This document shows positions 3,292 through 30,746 of a stretch of DNA of 64,000 nucleotides, piece by piece (position 1 is the stretch's first letter; the number at the start of each line of letters is the position of its first letter). The notes beneath the pieces are model-generated. The model was not told the DNA's origin. It did no database searches and worked only from the letters and a program-made list of their open reading frames with translations. A program made the translations under genes and the position numbers. Origin of the DNA: Polytrichum commune. Lineage: Eukaryota; Streptophyta; Polytrichopsida; Polytrichales; Polytrichaceae. Location: contig OX485809.1 of the NCBI GenBank assembly GCA_950295325.1, positions 28,658,144-28,722,143 on the forward strand, written 5' to 3'.

Positions 3292-3309
3292 TTCACTTCT
3301 TGGGTCCGC

Positions 3310-3326
3310 GGGGGGGGGGGGGGGGG
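3310..3326. repeat. Poly-G run, 17 G
   Basis: Seventeen uninterrupted G residues about 20 bp right of the hAT element at 2304-3291. It is one of several long mononucleotide G/C runs in the window (also 5731, 6163, 8661, 38390 and 52818). Exact length could be uncertain because such runs sequence poorly. Confidence 0.9.
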
Positions 3327-4789
3327 TGCATCAAATGAAATGAAATTGATTTTGAAGTCAAGGAAGCGGAAAAGGCTAATGGGACTAAAAGTACATCATG
3401 ATGGTTTCAAACTAGCTAATTCTCTAGAGTGATGGAGTGCGGTAGCCTCTGTGAGATAGAGGCTAATGTCAACTTGATGGTCTAATTAAAAGAAATACTT
3501 GAGGCTCCCTAGAACTACATCCTCAAATAGTGATGGAATCTCATCTCTAATTGGGTTATAGGGGAATTTCCAACACAAAATATGCCTCATTTTCAACTGC
3601 ATCATAGGAGGAAAAATGGCATAGTCTAGTATCTCTGTAGATAGGGATAGTCATCCATTGTCCAATTTCAATTGCAAGTCTATGGTTCAAGTTGCGGTAG
3701 GCAACAATGATCTTGTGTTGAGGTGGAGGTAATCTAGCTTCTTCCCTAAGAGATAAAGAGTTTCACTCTTTTGCAAGAAATACCTCCTTAATATCATCAT
3801 ATATATATATATATTTATATTTAAGTGGTTGGGTTTTCATGGGTTTCCTAGTAAGATATACTCATGATGTCTTCCATATGGTTGTCAATGTGTGCCATGT
3901 GTTAAAACCTTGTGTCAGGAAAGTGAGGTTGCTTTATCGGCTAACTAAGAGGGGGGTAGATGGGCAAGTTGTTGTTGAAAGTCCGTAATGACCTTGAGAG
4001 CATATAATTCTATGGGAAGGATCCGACCAATAAAATATGATAAGGAGTCAAAGAATGCACTTCGATGTGAGTCATCATATGCATCTTCCTGCCATCTTCA
4101 AAAACATTCTAATGTAGCCCATACAATACCACATGGGTGTACAAAAGAGGAGTTTGGCTTACAAAATATACATATGAGAGGGGTTTTGTTCCACTTAGTA
4201 TTGTACAAAGACATAAGGTACCATAAATTTTTGGGGAGAGTAAGTACTTAGTATACTCTAAGGGCCTCCTTAAGGTTTCTCACATGAGGAGTTTAGTTCA
4301 TTCATATAGACATGATAGCCCCCAAAAGTTTGTAAATATTAATCTACAAAGCAAATACTTATCATCCCATGCAATCATGCTTTATTGACTTTGTCAATAC
4401 ATAGATTTATAAGCATGTATTCAAGGAGTGCCAAGGAAAACTCCAATTGATTGTATTTTTGTATTCATACTTGAGACAATTTAAGTAGAAAGAGTTCAAA
4501 CTTGACACAGACAAACACACACACACATGAAAATATTATGTAGTGTAAGATTTTTGTGAAGTCTTCTTTTTTGTCTTTGCAAAATTTATATACATGAGGT
4601 TTAAATAAGGGTTCCTGCCCTTCCCACATGTATATAGCTCTGACTCTCAAAAATTAAAGTGCCCCCCCACTCCCCATTGGTTCACTCTACGCAAAATCAT
4701 TACGGGTATATTCCTTACTTTATGGTTCGAATAAAAGCATTTCAACACATGAAGGCCATGCCACAATAATAGTCATATGAACTCTTAAA
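3327..4789. other. Spacer without a recognisable gene
   Basis: AT-rich spacer with a short AT run near 3797-3815. The 87-codon reading frame at 3988-4251 has no recognisable motif and codon use no different from the surrounding spacer, so I do not call it a gene. Confidence 0.4.
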
Positions 4790-5345
4790 TTGGTTTAGAG
4801 AGCAAGCATGATCAAATATACAGAAAAATGCTCTAGAATAGTAAAACCATTATGATGTTTTTGGTCAAACATCTAAAAATAATAGCAAAGTGTTGTTTAA
4901 ATTGGATTCTTTTTCATGGTGCCCTCTATTGTTGGGTTGGGCATTCAAATATAGAATATAAAGATGAGGTCTTCAAAAATTGTCATTAAAAATACTATTC
5001 AAAAGGTAATGGCTATATATGGTTTGGGCGTAAATTTCATGACCTTAAATACTTTGAAGTTGGAATTTTTTCATATTCCTTGAATTCGTTATAAACTTAA
5101 GGGCACCATTACAAAAATTTGTAGAAAAACATAAATTTAATGTATTTTTATCATGTTTCAAACACATTTTAAACAACTATGTTATCAATATATCTACTTG
5201 CACCGTCTTTTAAAGTATGTACACTTTCCCTGGAGAAAAACTTGTTAACATAAATCAATTAACATAAAGCTTTGTAGATCAATGTGTTTCTCAAATTTTT
5301 ATGATTTTTGCTTCACAAAATTCAAAGTTAATGTATAGTTTTGAA
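4790..5345 (-). repeat. Dispersed repeat R, inverted copy
   Basis: Read in reverse, this segment matches 58695-59300 over its length and 57725-58060 over part. Shared blocks include the reverse complement of CAACTTCAAAATATTTAAG, the block TGCAATTTAAACAACACTTT (59184 region), and a stretch around TAACTTTGAATTTTGTGA. The copies are diverged and AT-rich. No terminal repeats or coding domain could be recognised, so the class is unknown. Confidence 0.6.
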
Positions 5346-5714
5346 TCACTTTCACTTAACCTATGTAGGGTAACGGAGTTGTGTACATAACCATACTTGC
5401 ACCCTTTAGTAGGAGGGCCACTTTAATGTCAATGTTCCAATATGAGGAAAAGTGCAAAATAACCCAGAGATAATAACTAAGAAGGCACTTGTTAACAAAT
5501 GTGAGAGTCTTCCTTCAAATATCTAAACAACCTAAGTGGTCATGTTAGTACATAATGGTCAAAGATAGCCTTGAGATAGGGTAGACCAAAAAAAATAAAA
5601 AATAAAAAATCGTCTATGCCTCAAGTGCAAAGGGGAAGTCTTTGAGTAGTCTTCTTGAAGAAGGTTACTCTCTTACATGTGTGCACACAACCGCAAGCAT
5701 CTAGGTGTTGGGGT

Positions 5715-6176
5715 GACTTGTGTAACCACAGGGGGGGGGGGGGGGTCACTCCATTGTCAAGTTGAACACCACGTGCGACCAAAAAAAACTTCTTTTGGTA
5801 AGTTGCACCACCAAAATGGGTCAAAATTTTATCAATTTTTTTCATGAGTAGATATACACAGTACCTATGACATAGTTAAAAGTGGTAACTAAATTTGATG
5901 ATTTGTTTTTTTCATAAAACATACCGTTTCTAACTAGAATGACACAAAATTGAACTAAAACAATTACTAAAAAAAATAAAGATGACTAAAAATTTCAAAA
6001 AAATATACAAAAGATACTATCAATGGTTATGTGTATGTAGAAAAAATATCATAAATTTTAAAATTATATATGGCATGTAATATAGGGGTAGCAAACTTTG
6101 TCCGCATGTGGTGTCAACTTGACAATGAAGTGACCTCCCCGTGTGTGTAACCCACTTGACAACCCCCCCCCCCCCC
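5715..6176. repeat. MITE-like inverted repeat with poly-G/poly-C at its ends
   Basis: The segment after the 15-G run (5731-5745), beginning TCACTCCATTGTCAAGTTG, recurs as its reverse complement at about 6101-6140 (…CAACTTGACAATGAAGTGAC), giving arms of roughly 60 bp round a 330-bp AT-rich core. The arms share GTGTAACC-like sequence and CCACGTGCG/CGCATGTGG. The right arm is bounded by a 14-C run at 6163-6176. In the second arm the site of the first arm's G run is only four G, so the run seems to have expanded after duplication. No clear target duplication was found. Confidence 0.5.
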
Positions 6177-6871
6177 TATGTATTTAATTAAGAAATTAAA
6201 GAACATGCACTTTCGATAACCATAACAAAATAAGGGTAGATCTAATTTTCAATCCAATTATTGCAGATGTTTTATTATGGATTTGCTAATGCACCACAAG
6301 TTTTGTTGTGTAAATCTAATGGGTAGAAGTTGGAGACCTTGAAGAAAACCAAATAACACCCACAATCTAAACCTCAATTTTTTTGGAGTTTTCCATTACA
6401 CTATTTTATAAACCTCGATTTTTATTGTACCTAAAAGGAAGGATGTTGCTCATGATTTTAAGATCACATCAATATGGCATGAATATTTAGTGATTTCATG
6501 ATTTGTTTATAATCGATTTAGAATCATTAAGCTTCAAGAACTTGTGATACATATATGCAATAAAATCACGGTCCAATCTTTCATGATTGTCTTAAGAAAA
6601 AGCTATGCACTTTGAGGTAAGAAAAAGAATCCATACAAAATTGACAATTGTCAAAATGAGTTCACATTACTATATGTAGTAATTGATCAACGAAGGGAAA
6701 GTTTGTTCATTCTTGACTTTAAAAATCTATTGTGAACAACCATCTTATCATATGGGAACGGGATTATCGCCACTCACAATAAAACCTCACCAGTAATACG
6801 GATGATACCTATAATCATGACCATGCTAGTACCTTTCTTATGGACGAAATTGCAAGTAACCAATGAACTAA
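6177..6871. other. Spacer without a recognisable gene
   Basis: AT-rich DNA; no ORF over 60 codons, repeat or RNA gene that I can recognise. Confidence 0.4.
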
Positions 6872-6935
6872 GGGCCGGTTTACACTATGGACCAGGAAGT
6901 CGTCCCATGACTCTGTAAGAGCACTGATTAGCTGT
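6872..6935 (+). mobile_element. Left end of a PIF/Harbinger-type MITE (truncated)
   Basis: After a TAA (6869-6871) comes GGGCCGGTTTACACTATGGA, which aligns with the left end of the 556-bp MITE at 56679-57234 and with the reverse complement of that element's right end (GGGCCGGTTTACAC). About 60 bp are alignable (…ACCAGGAAGTCGTCCCATGAC against ACCACGACGTCATCCCA). I could not find a matching right end nearby, so this is probably a broken copy. Confidence 0.5.
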
Positions 6936-7190
6936 AGACCATGTTTAACATTTGTGGACATTCAACTTCTGCTGCCGGACTTCGCAATAACTGGGCATGG
7001 CCTTCCCTGTTCTGCATCGTTGATTACCTAATTAAGCAGCCTTACGACTTCTGGAAGATCAACCTGCTTGCCATAGTACAGCGTGATTTAGCTGGCCTTC
7101 ATTTGAGGAACAACAAATGAATTCTTCTTCACTTGCATCCACAATGTTTCGTACATCAGCAGCGTGCACAAACATTCTGGCAGTCTAGAG

Positions 7191-7416
7191 CAGTGCCGCC
7201 GGGAAGTTTTTGGGCATAGTCGGTCATGATCCTAGTGATTCTAAATCCAGCCGGTTACATGTGGACATCTTCTGGTTTTGCTTTCATTCATTTGAGGTAT
7301 ATTCTATAGATTCCTCTAACATGATCGGTAATTCTCCTGAAGCCGTGAACTTCAACCGGTTATTTCTCAACTCAACCGGTTCATCTTAACTAACTGCCGG
7401 TTCTCCCTGGACATAG
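7191..7416 (-). mobile_element. 226-bp hAT MITE, copy B, 8-bp TSD
   Basis: Perfect 8-bp duplication GTCTAGAG at 7183-7190 and 7417-7424. The left end is CAGTGCCGCCGGGAAG and the right end …CTCCCTGGACATAG. The body carries several AACCGGTT motifs and the blocks TTTTTGGGCAT, CCGGTTACATGT and GAACTTCAACCGGTTATTTC shared with copies at 7574, 8040, 9013 and 53481. Its length is exactly that of the copy at 8040. There is no ORF; mobilisation would need a transposase like those at 39134 and 54633, which have related ends. Confidence 0.85.
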
Positions 7417-7573
7417 GTCTAGAGTGTTGAAGGGTTGGAAGATGCGACATGTGCTTCTCGTGACTTGGGTTATGTACCAGGAGGCATTCCCATCCAATTA
7501 AAGTTATGAAAAGTACAGACTCTTCGGTGGATGCGAACTAAAAGAGATGTTGACGAGGAGGAAGTGGCAGATA

Positions 7574-7795
7574 CAATGAACCAGGAGAACCGTCCACTAG
7601 TTACAGATGAACTAGTTGAGTTTGAGAAATGACCAGTTGAAGTTGGAGACTTCAGGAAAATCATTGAAGAGGAATATATAGAATATACCTGAAAGTAATA
7701 ACAATTAACTGAAAGATCACAAGATCACGTAAACCGGTTGGACTTGGAAACACTAGGATTTTGACCAATGATGCCCAAAAATCTCCCCGACACTG
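7574..7795 (+). mobile_element. 222-bp hAT MITE, copy C, imperfect 8-bp TSD
   Basis: Same family in the opposite orientation to copy B. It begins CAATGAACCAGGAGAACCG and ends CCCAAAAATCTCCCCGACACTG. Flanks GGCAGATA (7566-7573) and GACAGCTA (7796-7803) agree at 6 of 8 positions, as for an old target duplication. It lies only 157 bp from copy B and 244 bp from copy D. Confidence 0.75.
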
Positions 7796-8039
7796 GACAG
7801 CTATTCCTACCAAGTCTGGCATCGTCAAACACAGTGCCTCTTGCTCTCAACCCTGGGTCAATCTGGAGGACAAGGGTGGATCTCGCAGGCCATACTAACG
7901 AATCACAAAACTAGTTATGTTCTGGACAGGCAGTGGCTCCCCAAACGGCTGTTGCACCGAGGAGATGACATTGTATCGTGTTGGAAGTCTGCAACTACTC
8001 ACACAAAAAGAAAACTGGGGAATCAATGCTTACCTGCAG

Positions 8040-8265
8040 CAGTGATCGGGGAGATTTTTGGGCATAATCGGTTGAGATCCTAGTGTTTGCAAGTCCAACC
8101 GGTTACATGTTGACATTCTTCGGTTTTCCTTTATTAAATTGGGGTATATTCTATAAATTCCTCTAAACTGATCGGTAAGTTTCCTGCAGTCTTGAACTTC
8201 AACCGGTTATTTCTCAAACTCAACCGGTTCATCTGTAACAAACTGCCGGTTCTCCCTGATCATAG
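8040..8265 (-). mobile_element. 226-bp hAT MITE, copy D, perfect 8-bp TSD
   Basis: Perfect 8-bp duplication ACCTGCAG at 8032-8039 and 8266-8273. The terminal inverted repeat is CAGTGATCGGGGAG against CTATGATCAGGGAG. The interior is close to copy B. Ends starting with CA, 8-bp duplications and a short imperfect TIR are the hallmarks of hAT elements. Confidence 0.88.
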
Positions 8266-10570: not shown

Positions 10571-11973
10571 AGGGGTTGTTACACCACTTTCTTCCCATTC
10601 TCGGAGAATGGAGAATGGGGACGTGGCACGCTCTCCTTGAATGGCGGAGGGCCCATTCTCGGATAATGGAGAATGGAGAAAACTTCTTGTGAGAAGGTTT
10701 TACTGTTTTTCACCTGGGGTCGCTTCTTTCACATGGGGTCGCTTCTTTTTGTTGCGGCGGGGCTATAGGGTCACTTTATACTTGGGGCCGGATTGAGGAC
10801 CGGCCGGAACTCTCAAAATTTGGGCCAATAGGATCGCTCGATAACAACGCATCAATTAGCTAAAATGTGATAGCATTAGGCTAATAATACAACAATTAGG
10901 GTGCTAATCACACATTTAAGATAAAAATGAAACATTGAAGTATTTAATCAAGCACATAGTATGGCTTAGGCTATAGGTTGGTTTAATAAGGCAACAATTA
11001 GTATAAATATGTTAGCAATAGGGTATAACACAACAATTAAGACGCTAATCATACATTTAAGATAAAAATGAAACATTTTAAGTTGTCAATCAATAATTTG
11101 GCGTACATTATTCAATGGGTTAGTCCACTAACACAATAATTAGCACAAATATGGTAGTTAGGCTAATAACACAACAATTAGGATGATAATCACACACTTA
11201 AGATAGAAATGAAATATTTAAGCATTTAATCAAGCATATGGTATGGCTTAGGCTATGGATTAGTCTAATAAGATAACAATAAGTGTAAATATGATAGCAT
11301 TAGGCTAATAATACAACAATTAAGGTGCTAATTATGCACTTAAGACAAAAATGAAACATTTAATCCGTTAATCAAGAATATGGTGTGCCTTCTAAACCAC
11401 GCCCATCGGTGGTCAATCCATTGAACATGGTAGATAAATTTATAAGAGCATTTTGACGCTGGAATAGATTCAAAGGCCCCAATTTAGTCTAGTGGGACCC
11501 AATTTCGATTCGCTAACCACAACCCTATAGATGTCATCCCCCATAGTATTAAGTGTCATGAAACTTAATTGTCGAGAACACCGGGCATTGACCACAGTAA
11601 GTTCTGTGAAACTTAACCCTCAAGACCATCGGGCCCTAAAATCAGGCCTCACCACTTTACATGTGACAAGGTTAGGCCCCAAAAAAGTTCATAAAGTGGG
11701 GCCGGATTGAGGGCTTAATCAGGCCGGTGCTCCGGGCGGCCCCAACCCGTGTATAAAGCCGCCCTTAGTTGATCGAACTTCAAATCCGAGCATGTGAATA
11801 GAGCACAAATTCTTACCACATGCAGGCGGCAATGGTAATTCTCATTCTCCATTCTCCATTCTCCACAGGCCACAGAGGGGTGTCACACCTTTCTCCATGG
11901 AGAAGCTATTCTATTGGCTCCTCTTTTTCCTCATTCTCCATTCTCCATTCTCCGAGGAGGTGTGACAACCCCT
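10571..11973. mobile_element. 1.4-kb TIR element with internal tandem repeats
   Basis: Left end AGGGGTTGTTACACC and the reverse complement of the right end, AGGGGTTGTCACACC, form a clear terminal inverted repeat. It continues as repeated CATTCTCC/GGAGAATG words on both sides. Flanks read AAT on both sides, which can also be read as TA if the TIR starts one base later, so the superfamily (PIF/Harbinger or Tc1/mariner type) is unsettled. There is no transposase. Interior: four diverged tandem copies of a ~140-bp unit (10869-11395) and a direct repeat of GGGGCCGGATTGAGG near 10775 and 11700. Confidence 0.7.
10869..11395. repeat. Four diverged ~140-bp tandem copies
   Basis: Each unit contains TAGCATTAGGCTAATAA, ACAACAATTAGG, TAAGATAAAAATGAAACATT and TTTAATCAAGCA in the same order. 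Spacing between units is about 133-150 bp. It lies inside the 10571-11973 element. Confidence 0.7.
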
Positions 11974-12580
11974 AATGAACATGTGTGAAAGCTACTCAAC
12001 TAAGGGCTTGGCTGCACTTGGAACGGGTGCGGTAACCGGCCTTAAGGCAGCTCCGGCATCCGTATCCGGTGGGTCCATGCCGGATAGCCTGTAGGTGTGT
12101 CGGGGATTGTCGGGGCCATGTTCCTCCCAGAAAACGGAGCGAAGCACCAAAACATGATGATTTTCAACCGATCCTCTCAGGCAACGTTAGAGGTGAGCTT
12201 GGATGAGAACGCGCACTTCGGTGGACATAATTTGTTGTTGAGTCTTCAAGTGACAGGGTTTGCAGTTTTGTCCTTAGCTTGCTTCTTTAGCTTCGGTTCT
12301 CCCCGCACACTGTGAGGACCCAAATTTATCTCGTGAGTGGGCCGTTGCTTTCGATGTTTTGGGGGTGTTGGTGGTATCATGCAGTTTTGATGACTGCTTC
12401 TTGATATTAGGGTTTCCGGCTTCTTACACTACTGCTCAAACGTATAGTTTTGGGGAGTTTGGTGTTTGCATTTGCTGGCAATCTTTCGTCCTTGGCTCTG
12501 AAACTGTTGTGAACTTCACAATCGGGAAAGCTTATGGCCCCGTGTTGGCAGGAGTTCACCTGCAGAGGTGAGATTTCTCG

Positions 12581-12967
12581 TTGTGTTGGTTCTGTGGTCG
12601 AATACTGTTGTGGGTTTTTTATTTCCCTGAAGGCTGTGGTGTCACTTTCTGTTTCTGCTTCGCAATCGGTCAATCTTGTGGCAAAGTTAGAGCTCCCCTC
12701 TCCCCTCCCTTTACACTAGAGCTCAGCCTGCCACTAACTCGACGCAGGTATCCTTTCGGAGATCAGCTGAAAGCATCTTTAGATGATCTTCCACCGAAAG
12801 TAGACATGATGCTTTCTGAATCAGATGATGGTAAAGACCAGTGTATTCTCACGCTTAGGCGGGCCTCCGCATCACGTCTGTCAACCAAGAAATTTCATGT
12901 GGCCGAATTGGTCAGTTCTCAAACCGGATTCATTTGCAATTTGAATGGTCGGAGTATGCAAGAATAA
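12581..12967 (+). CDS. Unassigned 128-codon ORF in the Harbinger 5' region
   Basis: I do not recognise this protein. The N-terminal ~45 residues look like translated noncoding sequence, but from about residue 52 (RRYPFGDQLKASLDDLPPKV onward) to the stop at 12967 composition resembles a soluble, charged protein, and a CAG lies just upstream at 12744-12747 (…GACGCAG) as if a splice acceptor. It does not resemble transposon proteins I know. Two readings: a host exon captured by the element, or a chance ORF. It sits 1.1 kb upstream of the Myb-like gene on the same strand. Confidence 0.25.
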   Translation: MCWFCGRILLWVFYFPEGCGVTFCFCFAIGQSCGKVRAPLSPPFTLELSLPLTRRRYPFGDQLKASLDDLPPKVDMMLSESDDGKDQCILTLRRASASRLSTKKFHVAELVSSQTGFICNLNGRSMQE

Positions 12968-15790
12968 CGCTGCTGAAGGAGTCTTCAACATTAAGGTCAT
13001 AAGTCATTTGATATCCCCCCGCATACATATGAAGATGTGAATAAGTGCAAATTGATGACAAGACTAAATTTGATACTTTTGAGTGCTCAATAGTGAACCA
13101 CAACAACAACCATACCGCAAGAAAAAAACAAATGCAATGCCAGCAATGACTTGTACATCTTTGACACAGAATAATGAAAGCCAATGCTATCAGGTTCTAG
13201 TCTAACCACGATAATGCTTATTCATTGTCACCTTCTAGCTCATGTCACATTGATCGATTCTCTGCCATTGTTACAATAAGGGCTGAGTCAATGGCGAGGT
13301 CAATGGGGGAAGTCACACTATTAAATTGTGACCTCTCAAAGGAAATGTCCAACAGAAGGACAAGAGACCTAGATAAAGGATTAGTTTCCTGATAAGTTGA
13401 GGTTATGAACATGAGACAGATATATGAATGGGACACACACCTATGCTGACTTGAAACTTGCAATTACTTGTTGAGGCTCTGATTGACCGATTATGCCCAA
13501 AAATCTGCTTCCCACAGTGGGAGGCTCATTATTCTTCTTTGTTCTTTGTGCCCTGGAGATACCAAGAATTCTGTAATTTTTTACACTCTGGGCCAGTGTC
13601 AATGTTTATTGTGCAGATATTTTTGGAAACTCTGCTTCTATTCGAGAATTTGGCTGCACAACGTCTTCCGTCTTGGTCTTTTGAAACCTCGGGAGCAAAT
13701 TGTTCTAGTGAGCAAACTGGTGCTTCCTTGTTCTTGGGAAGCAAGTTGTCGGAGTTGTTGTATGTTTAGAAGGCCATAAGTAGACAACAATTCAGCCCTC
13801 TTGTGTGGGAGCAAGTTTTTGCGAGCCTAATAAGTCAGCATATGCATTGTCAAGAATGACACATCGCACGCAGTGTTTGTTCACACCTAGCCTTGAATCC
13901 AAAAGAAACTGCGAGCATTCATTGGTCCCCCAACTTGCATCACTATATGTGTTTATTGAACGTACATGGCCATGCCTTTCATGGTTCTTGGACCATCTAT
14001 AGATGATTTTCCTTTTTCCTGACATGTTCGCACCTTGACTTTGGCGTGAAATCAAATTGTTCCTTTTCCATGTGTGTTAATAGGGTTCTTTGTTAAGCGA
14101 TGGATGACATCGTGGATTTGAGCGAGAGCTCACAATGTCCATCTACTCAAGTGCCCATTGACGTGAATTTTGGCTTTAGGTCGGAGTTTCTGGACAACCA
14201 AACATTGGCTTCCTCTATGCCAACCGCTACAAAACGAGGTGAATCAAATACTGCACAATCATTGTCGGTTCCATCGGTATCACAAGCTGCACTTCCCCAC
14301 AAGGTTTGAGGGCCCAACTGGACTGAGGCGGAGATGCTTGTCCTCATTGGCCAAAAACATATAGAATGGGACGGGAGGCACAATTCCAATCATCCTTCTC
14401 TTGCCAAATTTGTATATGGAACCACGGCATGGAAAATGGTCTTGGCGAGATGCATGAGTGTGGTGGGTTTCGGGGTTAGGAATGCCGACCAAATAACCAA
14501 CAAGTGGGATGGCTTGATCAAGGACTACAAAATAATCAAAGAGTACATAGAAGGGACATGTTCCGCCAATTGGTGGGGGATGAGTAGGGATGAGGAGAAA
14601 AAATTGTCCAAAACTAGAAAAATGTCATTGGAGTTTAGTGAGTCTATGTACATAGAAATGGAAGGCTTTGTTGGGAAGAGACAAATTTTGGACCATACAA
14701 CGGATGTGGTGGACTCCAATAGGTTGACTCCGCCGGTTGCAAGGCATTTTGGTCACTCCCCTCCTACTCCACATGTTCCTTATGTTGGAATGGAAAGCCC
14801 TGCGACTAGTGCCGCGACTGCACCCGAGTTTCCAACGGAGAGAACGCCCAAAGACAATATACATGGCTCAACATGCCGAAAGTGGAAAGCCGTGGGCACT
14901 GACAACTTGGTGGACTTTCTCAAAAATTTCATTTACGAGTACCTTGCACATACAGAGACACAAGACAAAGACAAACGCGTTTCACTAGTAGAAATTATGC
15001 GTCCGGATCAACAAAAAATCAACAAAAAGGCGTTGGTCGCGGTTGTTACTTAGGACGCGTTGACCTGGACATGATGTAACACAGTTTTGTTGATTTTTTC
15101 TGTTGATTTGGTCACAAACTTTTTTTAAAAAAACTTTTTTAATTTATATATATATATATTGCTCAGACGTCATTTAATTTAATTATATATATATATATAT
15201 ATATATCATTAAAAATTATACGTGGATGCTTGGTAGGTCCGCACCTTCTAACCCCTTCCAAGTAACCCTCAACCTATACACCACCTTCAAGGATAAATTA
15301 CCCATCACTCACCTAGGTGGTAAGGCCAAGGGTGGCGGCCAAGGGGTTCGAACCTTGCACCTAGTGACACCCACACATGTGCCTTCACCACTACGTCATC
15401 ACATCACATATGACATACATGGAGTGCTTCAAACCTTTCTAGACTAAGGCCACTATTTTCTCTCTACTACCTACTTGATGTATATATTTATTGTAAATAT
15501 ATACTGTAAATATTGGGAATTGATATTTCTACATCTTTTTTAGCTAGATTCACATATTTTTGCCGGTTCGGTTGTTATGTCACTGAGGCGCTATATATGA
15601 GATTCTTCGTGGTGCATCTGGACCGTTGATCCACCAAGGGCCTCAATGATCCTAGGTGGCGGTGGGATGGGGGGCGGGGGTGGTGCTTGCCACCAAGGCG
15701 GGGTGGGGCCGTGGGCCTCATGTCTTTTTTGGGAAGGCCGGATTTAGGGTGGTATCGGGCCTAGTGGCTAGGTGGGCCCAGTGGCTAGGC

Positions 15791-16028
15791 CTACTTATTA
15801 TATAACTAGTTGGTTACCTTTACTCTACTTACTAAATGACTAGTTGGTTACCTTTATTCTACTTACTAAATGACTAGTTGGTTATCCTTCCTCTACTTAC
15901 TAAATGACTAGTTGGTTACCCTTCTTCTACTTACTAAATAACTAGTTGGTCATTTTTACTCTACTTACTAAATAACTAGTTGGTCACTTTTACTCTACTT
16001 ACTAAATAACTAGATGGTTACCCTTACT
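15791..16028 (+). repeat. 34-bp tandem repeat, 7 units
   Basis: Unit CTACTTACTAAATGACTAGT followed by TGGTTACCTTTACT, seven near-identical copies in the left foldback arm. Confidence 0.9.
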
Positions 16029-16279
16029 TGGTATTTTGATAGACTATCATATTACAACCATTGCAAAGAAGAAGACTATCCACAATCATATAGCATAGAA
16101 TTACAACATAATAGTACTGTCATTAGAGGTATTACATTTCCGGATGAAAATATTCGATTTGCTTGACAATAGCGATGATACATAAATTATGTAATATCAT
16201 GTCATACCTATTTGTTTCATATCATACCATAAGTAGGCTAGTTTGAAAATTAACCATTTAAGACCCATCTACATTAAGA

Positions 16280-16449
16280 GTAAGGCTAACCAACTAGTTA
16301 TTTAGTAAGTAGAATAAGGCTAACCAACTAGTCATTTAGTAAGTAGAGTAAGGCTAACCAACTAGTCATTTAGTAAGTAGAGTAAGGCTAACCAACTAGT
16401 TATTTAGTAAGTAGAGTAAGGCTAACCAACTAGTTATATAATAAGTAGG
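16280..16449 (-). repeat. 34-bp tandem repeat, 5 units, inverted
   Basis: Reverse complement of the left-arm unit (GTAAGGCTAACCAACTAGT…TAGTAAGTAGA), five copies in the right foldback arm. Confidence 0.9.
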
Positions 16450-16694
16450 CCTAGCCACTGGGCCCGTCTAGCCACTAGGCCCGATGCCACCCTAAATCCG
16501 GCCTCCCAAAAAAGACATGAGGCCCATGGCCCCACCCCGCCTTGGTGGTAAGCACCACCCCCGCCCCCCACCGCCACCTAGGATCATTTTGGATGCACCA
16601 TGAAGAATCTCATATATAGCGCCTCAGTGATACGGCAACCGAACCGGCAAAAATGTGTGAATCTAGCCAAAAAGGTGTGGAAATATCAATCCCC

Positions 16695-16912
16695 TAAATA
16701 TTTACTGTATATATTTATAGTAAATATTTACTAAATATTTATTGTATATATTTACATTAAATATTTACTATATATAATATATTGCCTTTCTTTACTATAT
16801 ATTTACTGTATATATTTATTGTATATATTTACAGTAAATATTTATTTTTTTATAAATATTTATTTACTATATATATTTATAATAAATATTTAATATAAAT
16901 ATTCTAGAATAT
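16695..16912. repeat. AT-rich repeats of TAAATATTTACTGTATAT type
   Basis: Imperfect tandem arrangement of TAAATATTTACTRTATATAT words inside the CACTA element, continuing the same low-complexity sequence seen left of the foldback (15480-15514). Confidence 0.7.
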
Positions 16913-17334
16913 TTCTAAAAGATTCTAAAAGATTCCACATTTACTGAAATTTTGTTGATTTGGTCATTGTACTATTCAGATCAACAAAAAAGTAGGCAGC
17001 AAACTGTTGATTTCTACAAAAATTCAAAAATCAGTGAAATCGGTCATTGCAGTGCCGGATCAACATAGATCTGTTGATTTTTTGTTGATTTGGTCATGAT
17101 TTTCTAGTAGTGTTTGGAGGAGTGAAGTGTTGGTATTGGATACGGCACGTGAAGGAAGAATTATACAAAAAGAAGTACAAGTTGTGAGCATAGATCAAAA
17201 AATTTATGAATTGAAGGTGGAGAGGACAAAAAAATTGGGAAATTTAACTAACAGTTTGTTGATGTTGGCGTCGTTTATGGATGTTGTTACAAGGTTTTGT
17301 ACTCCACCATCCTCCTTTGAATTTTAGCTTATTC

Positions 17335-19061
17335 TTAAGGTCTTGGTCTTCTTGGATGTCTTGCTATATAGTTGGCATTTTGGATACGTACTAGATAATC
17401 TAGAAAATACTCATTTGCCATCTTTCCTTCTAGCAAGGTTTTTTCTTCATTCATAAGGTCCATTGGTCTTGGGGATTGAAAGACATTTTCTTCGTATCTT
17501 TGTAGCAAGTTATTGTCGTCCATTGGCGGAAGATGATAATCTTCCAAAATTTGATCCAATGTCCGGTCATTGCTAGTAAGTAGTATGTTGTATAAGACAC
17601 AATAACAATGAACAACCGTATGTAGAAAATCGAGTTTTAAGAAGGATTTCGTTCCAATCTCTTTGAATCTTGCTTTAAGTATGTCAAATGTTCGTTTGAC
17701 GTTCGTTCACTTAGTTGAGTGTTTTTGATTGAACCAAACCTTTTTTTTAAAGAGACAATCCCATAGGTCTCATCTTGTATGACGTAATACACCAACTCAA
17801 AAGAGGGTATCCACGGTCCGCCACAATGTATGAAAGACTTGAAAAACCTACCGGCCAAATTAATGGATCATCATAAAACCTACTCATAATTCCCTCTTTT
17901 ATTTTTTGGTATAATTCTGTGGTTCAAAGTGTATGATATCATATAAGGATCCTGGCGGTCCAGTGTTAATAGATATAAAATAACATTTGCTATCTACAAC
18001 ACCTTGTGGTAGAATAAAAAATTATTTGTGTTGGTTGCGGTGATCAGCTACCACAATGGTATTTGATGGCGCCGCAATATAAATATGTGAGTCGTCTATA
18101 ACACCAATACAATTTGGCATCCACTGCTTGGCTTGGAACGCAGACGTGATTTTAGCCAACCTTCAGCTTACCGACCAAGCAATGAGATGTCCAAAATTAT
18201 TGCTTATGACTGAGCACATTTGTCGAATAATCTTATGTACGGTATATTTGTCTAATGTTGTTTATTCTGCAACCAGATATATAGAGACACCATGCATAAG
18301 CTTGAAAAGCGTGACTACCATTTTTTTCTCCACTCCAATTGATTGTCTTTAATGTATATGTTGTCCTTGTATGAACAGTCGAAGGTTATGTACCAATATG
18401 TTAAAAGTCTTCTTCCTCATTCGCAAGATGTCATAAAATATATCCGAGGTTTAGATGTTGAAAAATAATTCTTTAAACCGTCATGTGGATCTAGGTTAAA
18501 CATACCATTTAGCATCCACATTACTATTATGTCAAACAAGAAAGTCAAAAAAATTTGCTTCTCATGTAGGTGTTCTAATGGATCCTCCTCGGACTCATGT
18601 CTTTCCAATGTTTTATGCATTGGGCCAAAACCATCGTAATCAACCTTACTTTTCAAAAAAATTCTATATGCAATATGAGCTTCATTTGTCTCCGTTAATG
18701 TAATGTATATGTGTATCATAATTACAAACATGTCGATCATTGTTATCACAATGAGAATGACGGAGACAATATCTAATGTGGACATTGACCTTTGATGCAG
18801 TGCGAGATGTAGGGGAATGTTGGTGGGTCCGCCGCAACGGAACAATGGTGGAATACATGGAATCGTTGGTGGTGATTGAGGTGAAAATCGTGTGCCGACA
18901 AAAAACTCCCCTTGAAGGACAAAAAGTGTCGGCATTGAAAGTGGAGTTGGGACCTCGAGCTCATAAGGAAAAAAATCAAGAGGTGGAAAATACACAGAGA
19001 AAAAATCTAGTTCGGAGTCGGATTGAACTATCTCTTCTTCACGTGATTCTGCAACCTTCAA
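17335..19061 (-). pseudogene. PIF/Harbinger DDE transposase, decayed
   Basis: Read on the minus strand, the catalytic core is recognisable: CIGVIDDSHIYIAAP with the first Asp (near 18090), GPPGSLYD with the second Asp (codon 17938-17940), a DRGYPLLSW block (near 17815), then NQKHSTK and TFDILKARFK, and the C-terminal FLHTVVHCYCVLYNILL. These are the signature blocks of plant PIF/Harbinger transposases. The third acidic residue, normally E in V-E-R-x-F-G, is K here (VKRTFD). Stops interrupt the frame (for example after the HRNQHK block and just before the third motif) and a frameshift lies near 17740. The 214-codon open frame 18417-19061 is probably the N-terminal part. Stop TAA is at 17335-17337. 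It converges on the Myb-like gene. Confidence 0.82.
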
Positions 19062-19553
19062 TTACAAAAAATATGATTAAGGTTACATATCAATGTATAT
19101 TGGAGCAATGTACGTAACATTATGCACAAAATATGAATTACTGTCATAGTGTTGGCATTTTGATTTTGAATAGCTTTCAACAGACACGGAAATGGACTTT
19201 AATGTGACGCCAAATCATAGTTAGAAATGAAAGTCATCTTAAATGTCATTGGAAGTGGTATGTGAACTTCAACATTGTTTTATGTTTTCATGTGAGCTCC
19301 TACATGGATCTCAATGTCAATTTAAGTTGTGAAGTTGTTAGGTGATTTAAGACCAAAACCAAATTGTTTCACAATCAATTTAGAAGTCATGCCAAATGGC
19401 ATTCGAATTGAATGTGAAGATGTTTATATATTATAATTATATGCATGAAAAACAATGTGTTTCTCACGTTGCCGACAAAGACGAAAGAAAAGTAAAAGTA
19501 AAGCAAGACAACCGTGAAACTGTGGAATTTAGAAAAAAAAAACCTATAACTAC

Positions 19554-19830
19554 GTGCACTTGTGGATGAAGTTCTCAAAATTCCAAATCAACCTCGGCCA
19601 ACCTCTTCCTAACGACATCAAAAGGGTTGGACATCGCAATGAGGTTATCGCGCCGTGGCAAACTATCAAAGCCAGCATCACCGTCATGGACCATGAACAA
19701 AAGCGAGCGGCCCAACTCATGCGACTCCAAATCTTATTCAGAGTCGAACCGAAGCATGAGAGCTCGGAGATTGGTGCAATCTTCTTGCAACTCCCACTTG
19801 TACATCTCCACAAGAGAAAGAAGTTGCATG
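19554..19830 (-). pseudogene. Coding-like fragment upstream of the transposase
   Basis: On the minus strand one frame reads VEMYKWELQEDCTNLRALML, then a stop, DLESHELGRSLLF, GFDSLPRRDNLIAM and NPFDVVRKRLAEVDLEF, then a second stop. The composition is protein-like and charged. It lies 490 bp upstream of the transposase frame on the same strand, so it could be an N-terminal exon of it, but I recognise no domain. Both stops (TAA, TGA) are one C-to-T change from CAA and CGA. Confidence 0.3.
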
Positions 19831-20926
19831 CATGTGATATAGATCACATGATGGGAAGGAAGAAGCAACCGAACATGACAGCGCCATACAAGTTGCCATG
19901 TGCAAACACAACCATTGCGGAAACCTCAAAAAACAACACACAACATCCATGCACATAAACTTCCAACGAAATAAAATAATAAATAAATTTGGATTGACGA
20001 AATTCGGTCTCATGTCGCAATGAGTGTGAATAGTGAGCATAGCAAAACATCTTGTACCCTTGCCAATAATCCTCCACCCTACACACATATTTCCGGAAGT
20101 TGATGAACCAAACATTCATACATGTGAGCATGATGAAGCACTTCCAAAGCACGCTACCAACGACCGAGTGATTCCGGATACAAAAATGGCGAACCAACCC
20201 ATGGTATGCCAGCCATTAGCTTCGAGAGGTGGATTGACCAAGACGAGGTGGATTGACTTGCGAACATGGGTGGGACTTGAAACTCCATGTGAACTTATTG
20301 ATGGATAGAGTAACCGCAATTCAAAGATATGCAAAGTAGAAAGGCATTTGAATAAGGCAGATGGGTCTTTAATGGATATGTTTTCCTAATAGCCCACTCC
20401 TCACAGGATATGAAACACACAATTAGTACGAGATGGTTAACTAATCCAAAGCACATTGCCTCATGTTTGAAGTTGCATCGTGATTATTTAGACCTACAAT
20501 GGTCTCAATACTATTTGATCTCTCTGAGGGCAAATATCATTCTTGGTTTGAAAAAGAAATGACAACAAATGGCAAAAACTCCATCAAAATGACTACATTA
20601 CATTTTTGAGTGTCGTCTTTGTGAGGGAGCAACTAGAAGACGATATTGATCACATTGTGTTAGTGTTGTAATAATGCTCAAAACGGGGTACGAGTTCTCC
20701 TTCAGTGGTGGACTGTGATGAATTCAGAGCTGCAAAAATTTGAAGATTGCTTAAATTTTTTGTTCGAGAGGGAGGCAAGATCTGAATTTTCCTGTAGTCA
20801 GGACACATCCATCTCCTCGAACTGGAATAGTGAGCGAGTGCTCAAAGCTGGGACAGATGTGTTGTAGAAAACCGGCAAACAAAAATGTGTGTTTTTTTTT
20901 TCCCCATTCAATGGAAACTGTAATTC
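19831..20926. other. Harbinger interior without a recognisable gene
   Basis: Several overlapping open frames on both strands (for example 19844-20197 and 20116-20334 minus) without motifs. Treated as noncoding or decayed DNA. Confidence 0.35.
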
Positions 20927-22085
20927 CCACCTCTAAATTGTGTAACCTTGAATCTAGTCAAAGCAGTTCCGAACAAGGGACCAGAGTCTCTCTGAGCACT
21001 GAACCATCTACAGGGATTGCATAAATCCAAAATTACTGAAATAACATCCTCACATGTCACCTCCAGATATATGCTCCTTCTCTCTCACTCTAGTTTGTGA
21101 CTGCTTCTTTCTTGGCGAATCAGGAGAGATCAAATTACAAGTGCGCAATGCATTCGCTCTACCTGTCGGTCATCTACTTGAAAGAGAAAACAGACTCCTC
21201 ATTGACAATGTTTCCCAAGCACTAAGACTGCAAACATACATAAATGTTTTTACCTCTATCTTCGTCGCTCACTCAGCGTTTTCCGCCTCTGACTGCCTCC
21301 GAATGATCAAATTTCCTGAGTTATACCTCCCTTCCTTCTCCCTCACTCTAGTTCTGACTGCTTCCTGCTTGACGACTTACCAGAAACCTACTTCTTCGCA
21401 ATGTATCCACTCTCCCTGTCGCTCTTCTACTTCTCTTTCTCCCCCTAAACCACTTCAGAGAAGCAACAAATACCTCGTGTACATTGTTTCGCCTCCACAA
21501 GGAACTGGAAATATGTACAGTCGATTACGATGTCGCTTAATCAGATATTTCCATCTCCGACTGCCTCACTTTCTTCTCCCGCACTCTGGTTCATGACTCC
21601 CTCTTTCTTGGCGAATTAAAAAGAAACTACTTCGACGAAATTCGTTCACTCTCCTTATAGCTCACCTACTGCTTATCTCCCTGCAAATCTGCTTCAGCGC
21701 GGAAGCAAATTCCTCCAGGACATTGTTTCCCTTGCACAAGGAACTGCAAATATGTAGAGAATTCCCTCTCAATCAGACAATTCCATCTCCAACTGCCTCA
21801 CTTCTTGGTGAATTAAGAAGGAACTACTTCGATGAAATTCATCCACCCTACCTGTTGCTCACATGCTGCTCGTTCTCCCTGCAAACCGCTTCAGAGAGAC
21901 AATATCGAATTCCTTGTCGACATTATTTCGATACCTCAAGTGTGTAGAGTCTGAAATCAGTTTACATTTCTGTGAATGAGTAACTTCGCAGAATACTAAC
22001 AAGGGACCAACATGGATTGGCGAAATTCCCACCTCTAAATTGTGTAACCTTGAATCTAGTCAAACCAGTTCCGAACGAGGGACCA
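20927..22085 (+). repeat. Degenerate ~250-bp tandem array bounded by a 57-bp direct repeat
   Basis: CCACCTCTAAATTGTGTAAC begins a ~57-bp block at 20927 that recurs at 22027. Between them are about four diverged copies of a ~220-260-bp unit (starts near 21070, 21340, 21585 and 21790). Shared words include CATTGTTTC, ACTGCCTCAC, GACTGCTTC, CTACTTCGA and GGAACTGCAAATATGTA. A 180-codon frame at 21054-21596 runs through two units and is not considered a gene. Confidence 0.65.
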
Positions 22086-22792
22086 TTCCGAACGAGGGAC
22101 CACAATAATGTTGGGCACTAAGATAGATAGGGTTACTTTCTCCAACCAGCACACTTCTCTTAGGATATGAAATCATGATTAGTACAAGATGGTTAGCAAA
22201 TGGTGGATTTTTGGGACTCCCGTTCCAACGAGCTTCCAACTTAACCCTGAAGAAATCCTCAAGGATACAGACAGACAGACACCCGGGGTCCGGATCCAAG
22301 AAATCTAACTTTCAAGCTTAAATGCACCTTAGTATCGCAATATTGCTTTTCTGTAAGTTCGCTTCCATTCGGTCTCCTCCATTCAGGAGATACGGAGATT
22401 GAAGCAAGGGAGGGTTCACCGAAACAAGAGGAGATGGGAGGAAAATGAGACATGCACATCCAACGATCCCTTGCATATCAGATCAAAAAGGGGAAGGTTA
22501 TCCATGAAACATTACAGCTCTCGGAGCTCCCTCTCAATCGCAGTCACATGCTCCATCAACCTCACTCAACGCGGATCTTGGAGCGTGGGAGCTAGGAGAG
22601 CAGAGCCTGGGAGCCGACATAAAAGTGTGGATGAACGTGGAAGGCTCTCCGGCACATACCCAGCCGGTGCAGCTTCCGAGCCAGACCCGGCACTAGGGGT
22701 TGGCTAACCTTCTTACCCGGTTGGGAGCTTCTGGGTAGGCCTTGGTCAAATCCGGTTCCGGGCTGGCACCTCCACGTGCGGCCAGGCCCTAA

Positions 22793-25173
22793 GACCCACT
22801 TGAAAATCTCCGGAGCAAGTTTTTGTAGGTGCATTGGGATAGCCGGATGCCTCCGCTATAACCTTTACCCGGTTTTAAAAAATACTTTGGTTATTTGGTA
22901 AAGTCAAGTGGGAAGGGGGCATTAGAACCATAGGATTTGTAAATTTAGTTTTTGGACCTAGGAACCACCACTTGAGTTCAACCTAAAAGGTTTGGCATAA
23001 CTCATTTACCTTAGGCAAGTTGATATTATGGAGTTCAATCGTGAGTTCAATATTTTCATAATACGGCTCTCTACTGTTTTCATTACTAGGTGGTCATAAT
23101 CCCAATATATGGTGGGATAGAAATATGCTATGTCACATGGGTGGTTAAATTGAATGAACCAATTTACCTTAAATTAATGTCTTCACGTCTACCCAAGCCA
23201 TGCTCACCAAAATACCTTGTATTACCTTATAATCCTTATATGAGCAATGCATATCAAATTCCATTCAACATCGAAATTGGGATAAGTGAAGCAATAGCAT
23301 GCATACATAACAGTATTCAGATTCATAACAGTGTTCCATGGGATTGATATTATTTTCACATAATATTCTTGAATATTATTATATTCAGACTGAGCTTGGA
23401 AGAATATTTCACGAAATCATATCAGTCCCACATAACATTGTTATGAATATGAATAATATTATATATGTGAGCTCAACAATGTTTTAATCACGAGGACGGA
23501 AGATGCAATGGATAGGTATAACGAAGTGCAAGTGGGTGTGATGAAGGGAATCACTCGGTGCAAAACATGGGCCCACATGACTATTCTTGAAAGGTGTGCA
23601 ATCACGTCATCATCGCACCCAACAACATGTGCTCCCAACTACAAATCCTATCTCAACATGCACCCCTTTATCAAACTTATACAAAGGTTCAAACGAGGTG
23701 TGTGACTTTAAACCTTTTCACACAAATTAGATTTGCTCTGATTCATGTGTTTTTGGTGCCATTGTTGCTTTAACACGATTGCTTATTAAAATATTTGATG
23801 TTTGATAGGGAACTACGATGCTCAAAGCGTCTCAATGACCATGGCAAAGACTTGATTGGCATTGGACCCTGGTATATTCTATCGACTTGTTGGGCCATAC
23901 CTGGACTCAAGGCCTTGGGACTCCCACCAAACATCTCCAAAGAGGAAAGTTGCCGGAATTGTACTGAACTCAACCCCCCAATTATTCACTATGTCTACTA
24001 TGTTCACTACGTTGTCCTTCTTGTTTCCGATGCACGATCGAAATCTTCTGGTATTTGCATGGTTTTTAACATTTCATGTCAATGCTGTGTATGTGCATCC
24101 TTTTAGGACCTGCAAGATGTATTGTTTTTTTTTTTTTTGTAGTAGTTCTCATGTAGGAATGAATGAGATAAACCTCTAATGTCCCTTATGGATGGTTTTG
24201 TCCAAATTACCACCTTCGAAAGGAAGATTTCATTTGCATCATGCTTTTTGATATGTCCATAAATCATGCATAAGTCTAGATCTAATTAAAACACATTTTA
24301 ATGCGGGTCATGAATATGACAATATGCCAAGGGGCATTAAGACAAAAAGATTATAGTAAATTATGACAAGATGACACATCAATTTTTGGTAGCTAAGATA
24401 TTCATCTGGTCCATGATAAATATGTGACCCATCAATTCTAATATTATACTAATTTGGATATATGATGTACCATTTCAGAGTGTCCAAAGATTAGGTTGCA
24501 ATCTCATTGTAGTTCCTCAACATAGTTTACTTTCACTTCATACAAAGGGTGTGTTTATGACAAAGACCAAGGGTCGTTGCCATGGCTTTCTAACTTCCCT
24601 CATTGGTTGGAAAATGAGTGATGGACCTATTTTTCTTGACACTAGTCTACCCCACATTAGGTCATCAAAAACGAGGTCGACCGTGTCAAAAGATAGGATC
24701 ATAACGTACATGGAATGCTACATGTCATGAAATGGATAATGTTTGGTAATTGTTTGGATTTTGCAACTAGACCACCCTAATAGGTTGTCTCAACAAAGTA
24801 AAGGTGATTGTCCACTTTACATTATGTCATGTGACCAAGGCTTTTAGAGAATGTTGTGGATTCCTCTAGGTCGTGGCTATGGACCAAGGACCAAGACCAT
24901 GAGAGATCATAACCATTTGGCCTTCATTTGGTGCACGAGGTGGCATTTTGTGATTGGGAACAAAGACGACCTCCTCAAAGCATAACCCTCTCCCTCCCCT
25001 AGCCTTAAATTGAATTTTTGATCTCCATGAGTTGAGAGTCCAAAGAGGAAATTCGCTAAAATGGTTTACCTCAAGTAAAATCTTGCTCGGGTCTCTCGGC
25101 CCCTGTGCCCCTCCCCCCCATGAGTCTAGGTTGACCCTAATTCTCTTAAATCATTTTTCTCCCCATCTTTAGT
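22793..25173. other. Spacer without a recognisable gene
   Basis: AT-rich. Palindromic ATATTC/GAATAT words cluster at 23340-23480. Reading frames at 23795-24179 are unassigned. A 14-T run lies near 24123-24138. I see no RNA gene or element ends. Confidence 0.4.
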
Positions 25174-28621: not shown

Positions 28622-28678
28622 ATGCCTTGTGCGTCTCTTCTCTTCTCTTCTCTTTTCTTCGCTCCAATCCTTCGCTAA
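28622..28678 (+). promoter_or_regulatory. Possible 18-codon upstream ORF
   Basis: ATG 28622 to TAA 28676-28678 encodes [18 protein letters not shown], mostly the CT-rich tract. It acts on translation only if transcription starts upstream of it, which cannot be told here. Confidence 0.3.
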
Positions 28679-28731
28679 CGCTCCTCCTTTGGTCTTCAGT
28701 GCTGCCTTTTGCAGATTGTTGTTGCGAGAGG

Positions 28732-28743
28732 ATGAAGAAGTAG
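28732..28743 (+). promoter_or_regulatory. Minimal uORF (Met-Lys-Lys-stop) 5 nt before the EIL ATG
   Basis: ATGAAGAAGTAG ends five bases before the chosen EIL start. So short a gap leaves little room for reinitiation, so ribosomes would have to leak past this ATG; it may limit EIL output. Confidence 0.45.
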
Positions 28744-28748
28744 GCGGG

Positions 28749-30746
28749 ATGGGCCACGAGGGGGGTGGTCCCATGGGGCGGAGTGAGGATATGGAGTCCG
28801 GGGCGAACATGGACATGGGGGAGTTCATGGCAGAGACGGAGGACACCGAGGAGGGCGTGATGACGCAGGAGGACGAGGAGGAGTTGAGTGAGGAGGAGAT
28901 CGATGTGGATGAGCTGGAGAAGCGCATGTGGAGGGACCGTCTGCGCTTGAAGCGCATGAAGGAGGGGCAACGCCCCAAGGAGTTTGGCGTGGAGAGGCCG
29001 CGCCTACATAAGCAGTCGCAGGAGCAGGCGCGGCGGAAGAAGATGTCACGGGCGCAGGATGGGATCTTGAAGTACATGTTGAAGATGGTGGAGGTGTGCA
29101 AGGCGCAGGGGTTTGTGTATGGGATCATCCCGGAGAAAGGGAAGCCTGTGAGTGGGGCATCTGATAACATCCGGGCGTGGTGGAAGGAGAAAGTGAGGTT
29201 TGATCGAAACGGCCCGGCAGCCATAGCCAAGTACCAGGCAGATCACGAGCTGCCGGGAAAACCGATAGGTAATGTGAGCTCTGCCCCTACACCGCACACT
29301 CTGCAGGAGCTGCAAGACACCACATTAGGGTCGTTGCTGTCTGCACTCATGCAACATTGCGACCCTCCGCAGCGGCGGTACCCTCTGGAGAAGGGCCTGC
29401 CGCCTCCCTGGTGGCCCTCGGGGAACGAGGAATGGTGGCCGCAGCTGGGATTGCCCAAGGGCCAAGGTCCCCCTCCTTACAAGAAACCCCATGATTTGAA
29501 GAAGGCGTGGAAAGTGGGGGTGTTGACGGCTGTAATCAAGCACATGTCGCCAGACATTGCCAAGGTTAGAAAGTTGGTTCAGCAGTCCAAATGTTTACAA
29601 GACAAGATGACTGCGAAGGAGAGCGCGACGTGGCTGTTCGTTCTTAACCAAGAGGAAGGGCTCGCTTGGCCACAGAAGGGCATGAATGCGGCCGGAACTC
29701 CCGGAGGGCACAGTTCTGGGAGCCTGGCAGTGAACAGTGCAAGCGAGTTTGATGTGGATGGACTAGGTATTGATCTCCAACAGGGGAATTCCGGAAGCGA
29801 CGAAGCTGAGGATGTGGATGCTGACGACCATGAAGCCCCTAATGCCAGTAGACCCGACTTCTCTGCTCTAACGAAGGGCGGAGTAGAGAGGGATGCGGAC
29901 ACACCGGACTCAGATTTCTCCCTGAGGATACAGGACGGAGATACGATGGAAAGTGGGAGAAAGAAGCGGTCTTCAGGGGGCGCAGATGCAGAGCAGACGA
30001 TTTTTATGTGCCGTTATAAGAGATGCAAACACAGCGAATGGCGGAATGCTTTTCCTGGACGAGAATTGCGCGACAGGCATGTGGAGACCTGCACGATGAG
30101 GTCGGAGATTCAAGGATCTACAATGAGTCGACCGATGTCTGGAAGTATGGCACAAAGCAACGATCAGTTGCAGGCTTTGGGTGGGAACAGTCTTTTCCCG
30201 TCGGATGGAATCGCCAGCAGTCACGCCAATGTGATCCAAGGAATGGCAGCTTATACTCCCCTCCCTCTCCCTGGCCATCTCCAAAGCGTAACCCCTGTGC
30301 AGAGCACGCAAGGAGGTAATGAAAGTCATCATCTGCTTCATGACTTGTTTGCAGGGATATATGGGTCTAGTGGATTACAGCCAATGGACAATCGGATGGG
30401 AGTTGCAAGTATCAGCGGACCAGCACAGGAGCTTGGAGGGGGCCATTTAGGTCTGGATAGTGCGATGGACAATCATCATCACCATCGGCCAATGGAGACA
30501 TCTGACCTTGTTTCCGATGAAAGCTTATTTGGGCATGGGTTCGGGGCATCTGGGAATGGAGTTGGGAATTTTAGTAATATGCAGAAGGAAGGGAATGCAT
30601 TCGAACACACATTCGAGCAACATGGTGTTGAGCTACCGGCAGAGTATAATTTCGGCACCCCTTTTGATATAGGAATGGAGGCTCCAGTGCCACTGGGGCC
30701 TCCCATAGACTTGGATGAGGACCTGATATGGTACTTCGGTGCTTAG
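28749..30746 (+). CDS. EIN3/EIL-family transcription factor, 665 aa, intronless
   Basis: Nuclear DNA-binding protein of the ETHYLENE INSENSITIVE3-like family, which in flowering plants acts below EIN2 to switch on ethylene-response genes. Start ATG 28749 (MGHEGGGP) is chosen because the open frame upstream has no ATG, only GTG. Domain order: acidic N-terminus (~26-52, TEDTEEG…[10 protein letters not shown]); basic helix [20 protein letters not shown] (52-71); core [18 protein letters not shown]…[16 protein letters not shown] with [14 protein letters not shown] (96-156); Pro/Trp-rich link (213-244); [20 protein letters not shown] (248-267); [20 protein letters not shown] (275-294). All core blocks are intact. 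A C-x4-C-x15-H-x4-C-like block (421-448) matches the usual cysteine/histidine region. After LNQEE (299-303) it departs from the angiosperm form. C-terminus [10 protein letters not shown]. Function is family knowledge; whether it is ethylene-responsive here is inference. Confidence 0.95.

Follow-up and report, generated by a model that had tools for sequence, protein, structure and literature searches.

A foldback element within a CACTA element within a decayed PIF/Harbinger element in Polytrichum commune

A stretch of 64,000 nucleotides of the Polytrichum commune genome (C7:28658144-28722143, hereafter the window) carries a PIF/Harbinger, a CACTA and a foldback element that appear to lie one inside another. 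This raises the question of whether each is an element in its own right, with its own ends and target duplication, and in which order they arrived. We searched the genome, of about 408 Mb in 64 contigs, for related copies, and found boundaries, target duplications, paralogous empty sites and family resemblances. With a probability of about 95%, the locus is an ordinary nest of cut-and-paste DNA transposons, in which a Harbinger lies in a repeat, a CACTA element in the Harbinger, and a foldback in the CACTA element. The three-level nest that an earlier note had described, with its element kinds (the foldback as a structural class) and boundaries, was borne out by these other copies. All three levels stood, but the note had overlooked the high-copy repeat that hosts the outer element and an unmatched stretch within that element.

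The outer element and its host repeat

The ends of the outer element and its surroundings are as follows.

12004..22789, no strand: outer element, a decayed PIF/Harbinger that measures 10,786 bp including every insert
12004..12017, + strand: left terminal inverted repeat (TIR), GGGCTTGGCTGCAC
22776..22789, - strand: right TIR, GGGCCTGGCCGCAC
12001..12003: target duplication TAA, left (a single TAA is present at the empty site in loci L066 and L067)
22790..22792: target duplication TAA, right
11974..12003: host repeat, left piece, a high-copy short repeat (from joined-flank matches and alignments)
22793..22925: host repeat, right piece (the L066 and L067 alignments both stop there)

The TIRs match at 12 of 14 bases, and the TAA on each side corresponds to the 3-bp TTA/TAA duplication of PIF/Harbinger elements. 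Taken alone, this end pair is hardly beyond chance: a scan of the whole window for pairs flanked by TAA or TTA, 2-15 kb apart, with at most 2 mismatches and at least 7 G+C of 14, returned two pairs, one of them the Harbinger ends, and five block shuffles returned 1, 1, 1, 0, and 0. The boundaries are settled because the right-end matches of other copies stop at the same base, 21 of 27 (window copy counted) ending exactly at the last one. Both flanks were read in six of seven short Harbinger copies, giving four TTA/TAA pairs, one AAA pair, and one mismatch.

When the outer flanks were joined and used as a query, 40 matches were scored of 1694 candidates, two being the window's own halves. All 38 non-self matches spanned the junction, and 37 started at query positions 84-86 (window 11973-11975). 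In L066 and L067, the flanks are joined without a Harbinger and with one TAA only; the similarity of L066 extends farther leftward than the host repeat. Because all the non-self flank matches cross the junction and L066 and L067 have a single TAA, the Harbinger is inserted in a short high-copy repeat, so that the nest has at least four levels. Rfam returned no family at E-values up to 1 in L066 and L067, and none at the gathering score in the window.

The CACTA element and its empty site

The middle element interrupts a gene of the Harbinger, which lies on both sides of it.

14983..17112, no strand: middle element, non-autonomous CACTA, 2130 bp, CACTAGTAGAAA ... TTTCTAGTAGTG
14980..14982: target duplication TTT, left (a single TTT is present in L018 and L057)
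17113..17115: target duplication TTT, right
14100..14982, + strand: Myb/SANT-like gene, first part, with an in-frame stop just before 14310
17115..17327, + strand: Myb/SANT-like gene, second part, beyond the CACTA element, in the same frame once rejoined and unbroken in other copies

The element has CACTA...TAGTG ends and a 3-bp duplication (TTT/TTT). In silico excision of the element with one TTT rejoined the Myb-like frame, which confirms what the earlier note had stated, and other copies run straight across. The note had also proposed to look for an empty CACTA site in other Harbinger copies. The site was uninterrupted in all six copies aligned base by base, and L018 and L057 had the same single TTT. 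Of 97 matches to a protein query that covers the site, 92 continue across it. The remaining five were the two halves of the window copy, two second halves that belong to spanning copies, and a single piece beginning at the site, whose neighbouring piece is only 186 bp off. No second occupied copy was found among these five.

The left 258 bp of the CACTA element gave 67 matches (40 scored of 191 candidates). Among 29 other CACTA loci, 23 have both ends, with lengths of 644-1719 bp (median 1143), and the 3-bp flanks match in 20 of them. No Transposase_21 gene was found within the window copy, which is non-autonomous because no open reading frame (ORF) of at least 80 codons lies wholly inside 14983-17112. 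Transposase_21 domains are common elsewhere in the genome (150 scored of 643 candidates, all of those listed being above the cut-off and most stop-free). These genes and a DDE_Tnp_4 frame in locus L065, described below, are possible sources of transposase.

The foldback element

15515..16694, no strand: inner element, foldback, 1180 bp, with arms at 15515-15962 and 16277-16694
15507..15514: 8-bp target duplication TAAATATT, left
16695..16702: 8-bp target duplication TAAATATT, right
15791..16028: 34-bp tandem array in the inner left arm, reaching into the middle
16277..16448: 34-bp tandem array in the inner right arm

The inner element has the long inverted arms with tandem repeats and the variable middle of a foldback; the arms are 92% complementary over the longest ungapped block and 86.6% when 485 columns, partly of flank, are compared. 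The octamer TAAATATT occurs 8 times in 16695-16903 and is weak evidence by itself. Four copies, picked as facing pairs among 40 scored matches of 416 candidates obtained with the arm as query, have the same left and right ends as the window copy. Together with the right end of the Harbinger, they run against the first refuting condition of the earlier note, that other genomic copies would have their ends elsewhere; the second, that all Harbinger copies would carry the CACTA element at the same site, is contradicted by the empty sites. Their 8-bp duplications are all perfect (TATATATA, TAAAAAAA, TAGATTTA, and TAATTTTA), as is that of a fifth copy (TATATGTA). The duplication, 8-10 bp in foldbacks, is thus a perfect 8 bp in six of six copies, the window copy counted, and all six start with TA as read.

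In the fifth copy (L065:318-8474), a Harbinger (about 787-8098) lies in the middle of the foldback, and the nesting order is reversed relative to the window.

The CACTA relatives show the site before insertion. Where a relative aligns to the left and to the right of the site, the positions equivalent to about 15514 and about 16695 are joined without the foldback; past the foldback edge, L034 matches 28 bases and L029 14. The foldback interior had no same-strand match of at least 50 bp in the 29 other CACTA loci. A reading of TAAATATT as part of the inverted arms, not as a duplication, was rejected on these empty relatives and on the ends and duplications of the other copies.

Between its two arms, the window copy has 15 differences over 253 sites, every one a transition, and the four other copies have 0 to 3 over 290 sites. 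Transitions of this kind would be expected from decay at methylated cytosines. It is rather doubtful, yet worth stating, that these copies represent a high-copy plant family with 34-bp arm modules and TA-starting 8-bp duplications, moved by a transposase superfamily not yet tied to plant foldbacks and nesting with Harbingers in both directions.

Order and timing of the insertions

The divergence of each level was estimated from three trees: a Myb tree (7 sequences, 1109 columns), a tree of CACTA ends (384 columns; 24 sequences, taken from the window and from the 23 loci in which both ends are present), and a tree of foldback arms (10 arms from 5 copies, 285 columns). The window copy has a terminal branch of 0.071 in Myb and of 0.032 in the CACTA ends; its two foldback arms have branches of 0.051 and 0.029. 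The longest branch is that of the outer element, in line with expectation, and the CACTA element and the foldback cannot be ranked. The earlier note had held the order of insertion to be readable, and this stood in so far as each guest lies within its host, but neither the nesting nor the dating tells which came first, the entry of the foldback or the move of the CACTA element.

It is rather less likely than not that the foldback was already in the CACTA element when the latter entered the Harbinger, so that the inner two came as one package. The nesting by itself is compatible with such a package, the terminal branches overlap, and the ends of the CACTA element are intact, so that a loaded copy could move. 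However, no other foldback-bearing CACTA element was found among the 29 loci, 4 of which miss the site. A package of this kind would also be compatible with the nest as a whole.

In the nest that we favor, a Harbinger would have inserted at a TAA target within a copy of the high-copy short repeat, and would then have decayed through stops and frameshifts, mostly by transitions. A non-autonomous CACTA element would have inserted at TTT in its Myb-like gene. The foldback would have inserted, with an 8-bp duplication, at an AT-rich array belonging to this CACTA family, before or after the CACTA element entered the Harbinger. Each move was presumably a cut-and-paste event, with the transposase acting in trans, and the times of the moves are likewise inferred.

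The Harbinger genes and the unity of the outer element

17340..19061 (limits approximate), - strand: Harbinger transposase remnant, with frameshifts and stops

The two genes of a PIF/Harbinger element were both recognized by their domains, as the earlier note had indicated, but both are broken, the Myb frame by its in-frame stop and the transposase at several places. The second gene matches Pfam Myb_DNA-bind_4 (E-value 4.3e-6, 27.5 bits where the cut-off is 27). The transposase, read through in pieces, matches DDE_Tnp_4 in its C-terminal part (E-value 1.4e-5, 25.2 bits against a cut-off of 24.8). The Myb protein query gave 132 matches (150 scored of 154 candidates). These matches are numerous, many being stop-free and of full query length, and the Myb-bearing family is therefore large, with the window copy as a decayed member. 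The window copy and L018 differ at 777 of 4371 sites, and a codon-phase test between them found no codon position in clear excess.

The outer ends and the coding core might belong to two elements, a smaller Harbinger lying inside another element with a TAA duplication. In the examined stretch of the closest copy, on C3, the core alone matched. We nevertheless regard this arrangement as very improbable, and rejected it on two observations: the C3 copy has left-region sequence farther out, upstream of its Myb match, at 92-93% identity, and in six loci a same-strand Myb match is followed, 4.3-6.6 kb downstream, by a match to the Harbinger right end (or to its close edge). Two loci that are nearly identical, L064 and L065 (98.6% and 99.1% in two blocks), also stand against it, since each forms a single unit whose ends are related and whose duplications are TTA or TAA. 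The Harbinger of L065 (about 787-8098 of its locus) is 7.3 kb long, and that of L064 about 8.0 kb including a 0.7-kb insertion. L065 has a Myb frame (25.4 bits, below the Pfam cut-off of 27), a DDE_Tnp_4 frame (E-value 1.1e-24), and a 397-codon frame without a Pfam match; the remainder of its transposase seems to lie in a different frame, and we do not claim this transposase as intact. Weakest of all, and next to impossible in our view, is an origin of the inverted arms as a rearranged part of the CACTA element (an inverted duplication) with no separate element involved: AT-rich sequence, partly palindromic, flanks the site on both sides, and the inverted alignment extends beyond the arms, but the arm query gave its 40 scored matches of 416 candidates, and the four copies elsewhere have the same ends, outside the CACTA element, and perfect 8-bp duplications.

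Two observations concern other Harbinger copies. That of L018 and L020 (G000:C4:43134970-43160557) appears to extend over about 25.6 kb and to be interrupted near the right end by about 11.4 kb, which would make it a larger nest than that of the window. Window 12732-13161 (430 bp) is unmatched in the C3 copy and matches at 93-95% in two C2 pieces about 13.4 kb apart.

One part of the outer element has no match in the copies with which it was compared.

20223..22206: stretch without a counterpart in two other Harbinger copies (L018 and the compared part of the C3 copy)

It is probably further inserted or replaced DNA. Within it, 20255-20855 matches two C1 loci at 81-85%, and 20352-20450 is a match of about 100 bp to a very common repeat (1267 candidates for the whole query, 40 scored). 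The match at C1:37080071 is about 10.4 kb from a same-strand Transposase_21 match, and a shorter one at C1:36904610 is about 12.7 kb from another Transposase_21 match.

Several points weigh against the nest as we read it. Every empty site is paralogous and none is orthologous. End pairs of the quality of the Harbinger ends appeared in 3 of 5 shuffles, and among the six short Harbinger copies, one duplication fails and one is AAA instead of TTA/TAA. L018 has a left end of only 68% identity over 401 columns and a right end interrupted by about 11.4 kb. The N-terminal transposase piece reaches a DDE_Tnp_4 E-value of only 0.1 and was ranked under an unrelated family. The stretch 20223-22206 means that the outer element does not form a single clean unit. 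Three of the 23 CACTA copies lack a matching duplication, and 4 of the 29 CACTA loci (L033, L045, L048, and L051) align left of the foldback site only and are uninformative there. Finally, the CACTA and foldback divergences overlap, and a terminal branch also includes change before insertion.

Neighbouring features of the window

Outside the nest, 28623-30746 contains an EIN3 gene with an uninterrupted 707-codon frame and a full DNA-binding domain (Pfam EIN3_DNA-bd, E-value 1.6e-127). This gene and the seven large contigs point to a land plant. At 10853-11391 lies a 142-bp tandem repeat of 3.8 copies, which the C3 CACTA locus L033 matches at about 76-89%.

Comparison with known systems

The nest leaves knowledge of the Harbinger, CACTA, and foldback families unchanged, and such nests are ordinary in such genomes. 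Well checked, and with a paralogous empty site for each of its nested DNA transposons, it offers a test case for transposon annotation and relative dating.

Non-autonomous CACTA (En/Spm) elements have CACTA ends and 3-bp duplications. The middle element of the window shares both, and Transposase_21 genes occur in the same genome, but the window copy has AT-rich arrays instead of genes and carries no transposase.

The outer element resembles the PIF/Harbinger elements of Medicago truncatula (MtPH), for which the available part of the source describes TIRs of 14-25 bp, TTA/TAA duplications, a transposase that some elements combine with a second ORF (orf1), deletion derivatives, and nested insertions (PMC2213677). 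It differs in that the motif G(N)5GTT, used there as a mining rule and not taken here as defining, is absent from its ends, including GGGCTTGGCTGCAC, and in its guests, those in MtPH being, in that part of the source, gypsy-like retrotransposons and a 2,191-bp element with a 5-bp duplication (PMC2213677). Complete MtPH elements range from 2,180 to 25,288 bp, with nested insertions also in the longest, as far as that part of the source goes (PMC2213677). The suggestion that a 10.8-kb Harbinger is large for plants therefore fails; much of this size is inserted DNA, with 2.1 kb of CACTA element and about 2 kb without a counterpart in two other copies.

The Tetris foldback of Drosophila virilis, in the portion of the report available, has long inverted arms with inner tandem repeats, a variable middle, and 8-9 bp duplications in complete copies, as the window foldback has arms, repeats, and duplications of this kind (PMC4079207). 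Its repeat units are about 220 bp, whereas those of the window foldback are 34 bp, and the TA start of all six duplications read in the window family is a further difference from what that portion describes (PMC4079207). Lastly, the nested transposon blocks of rice centromere 8 likewise hold many elements within one another, the CACTA and Harbinger superfamilies included, but the host in the part of that account available is the solo long terminal repeat of a retrotransposon, in place of the Harbinger that is the host here (PMC4387472).

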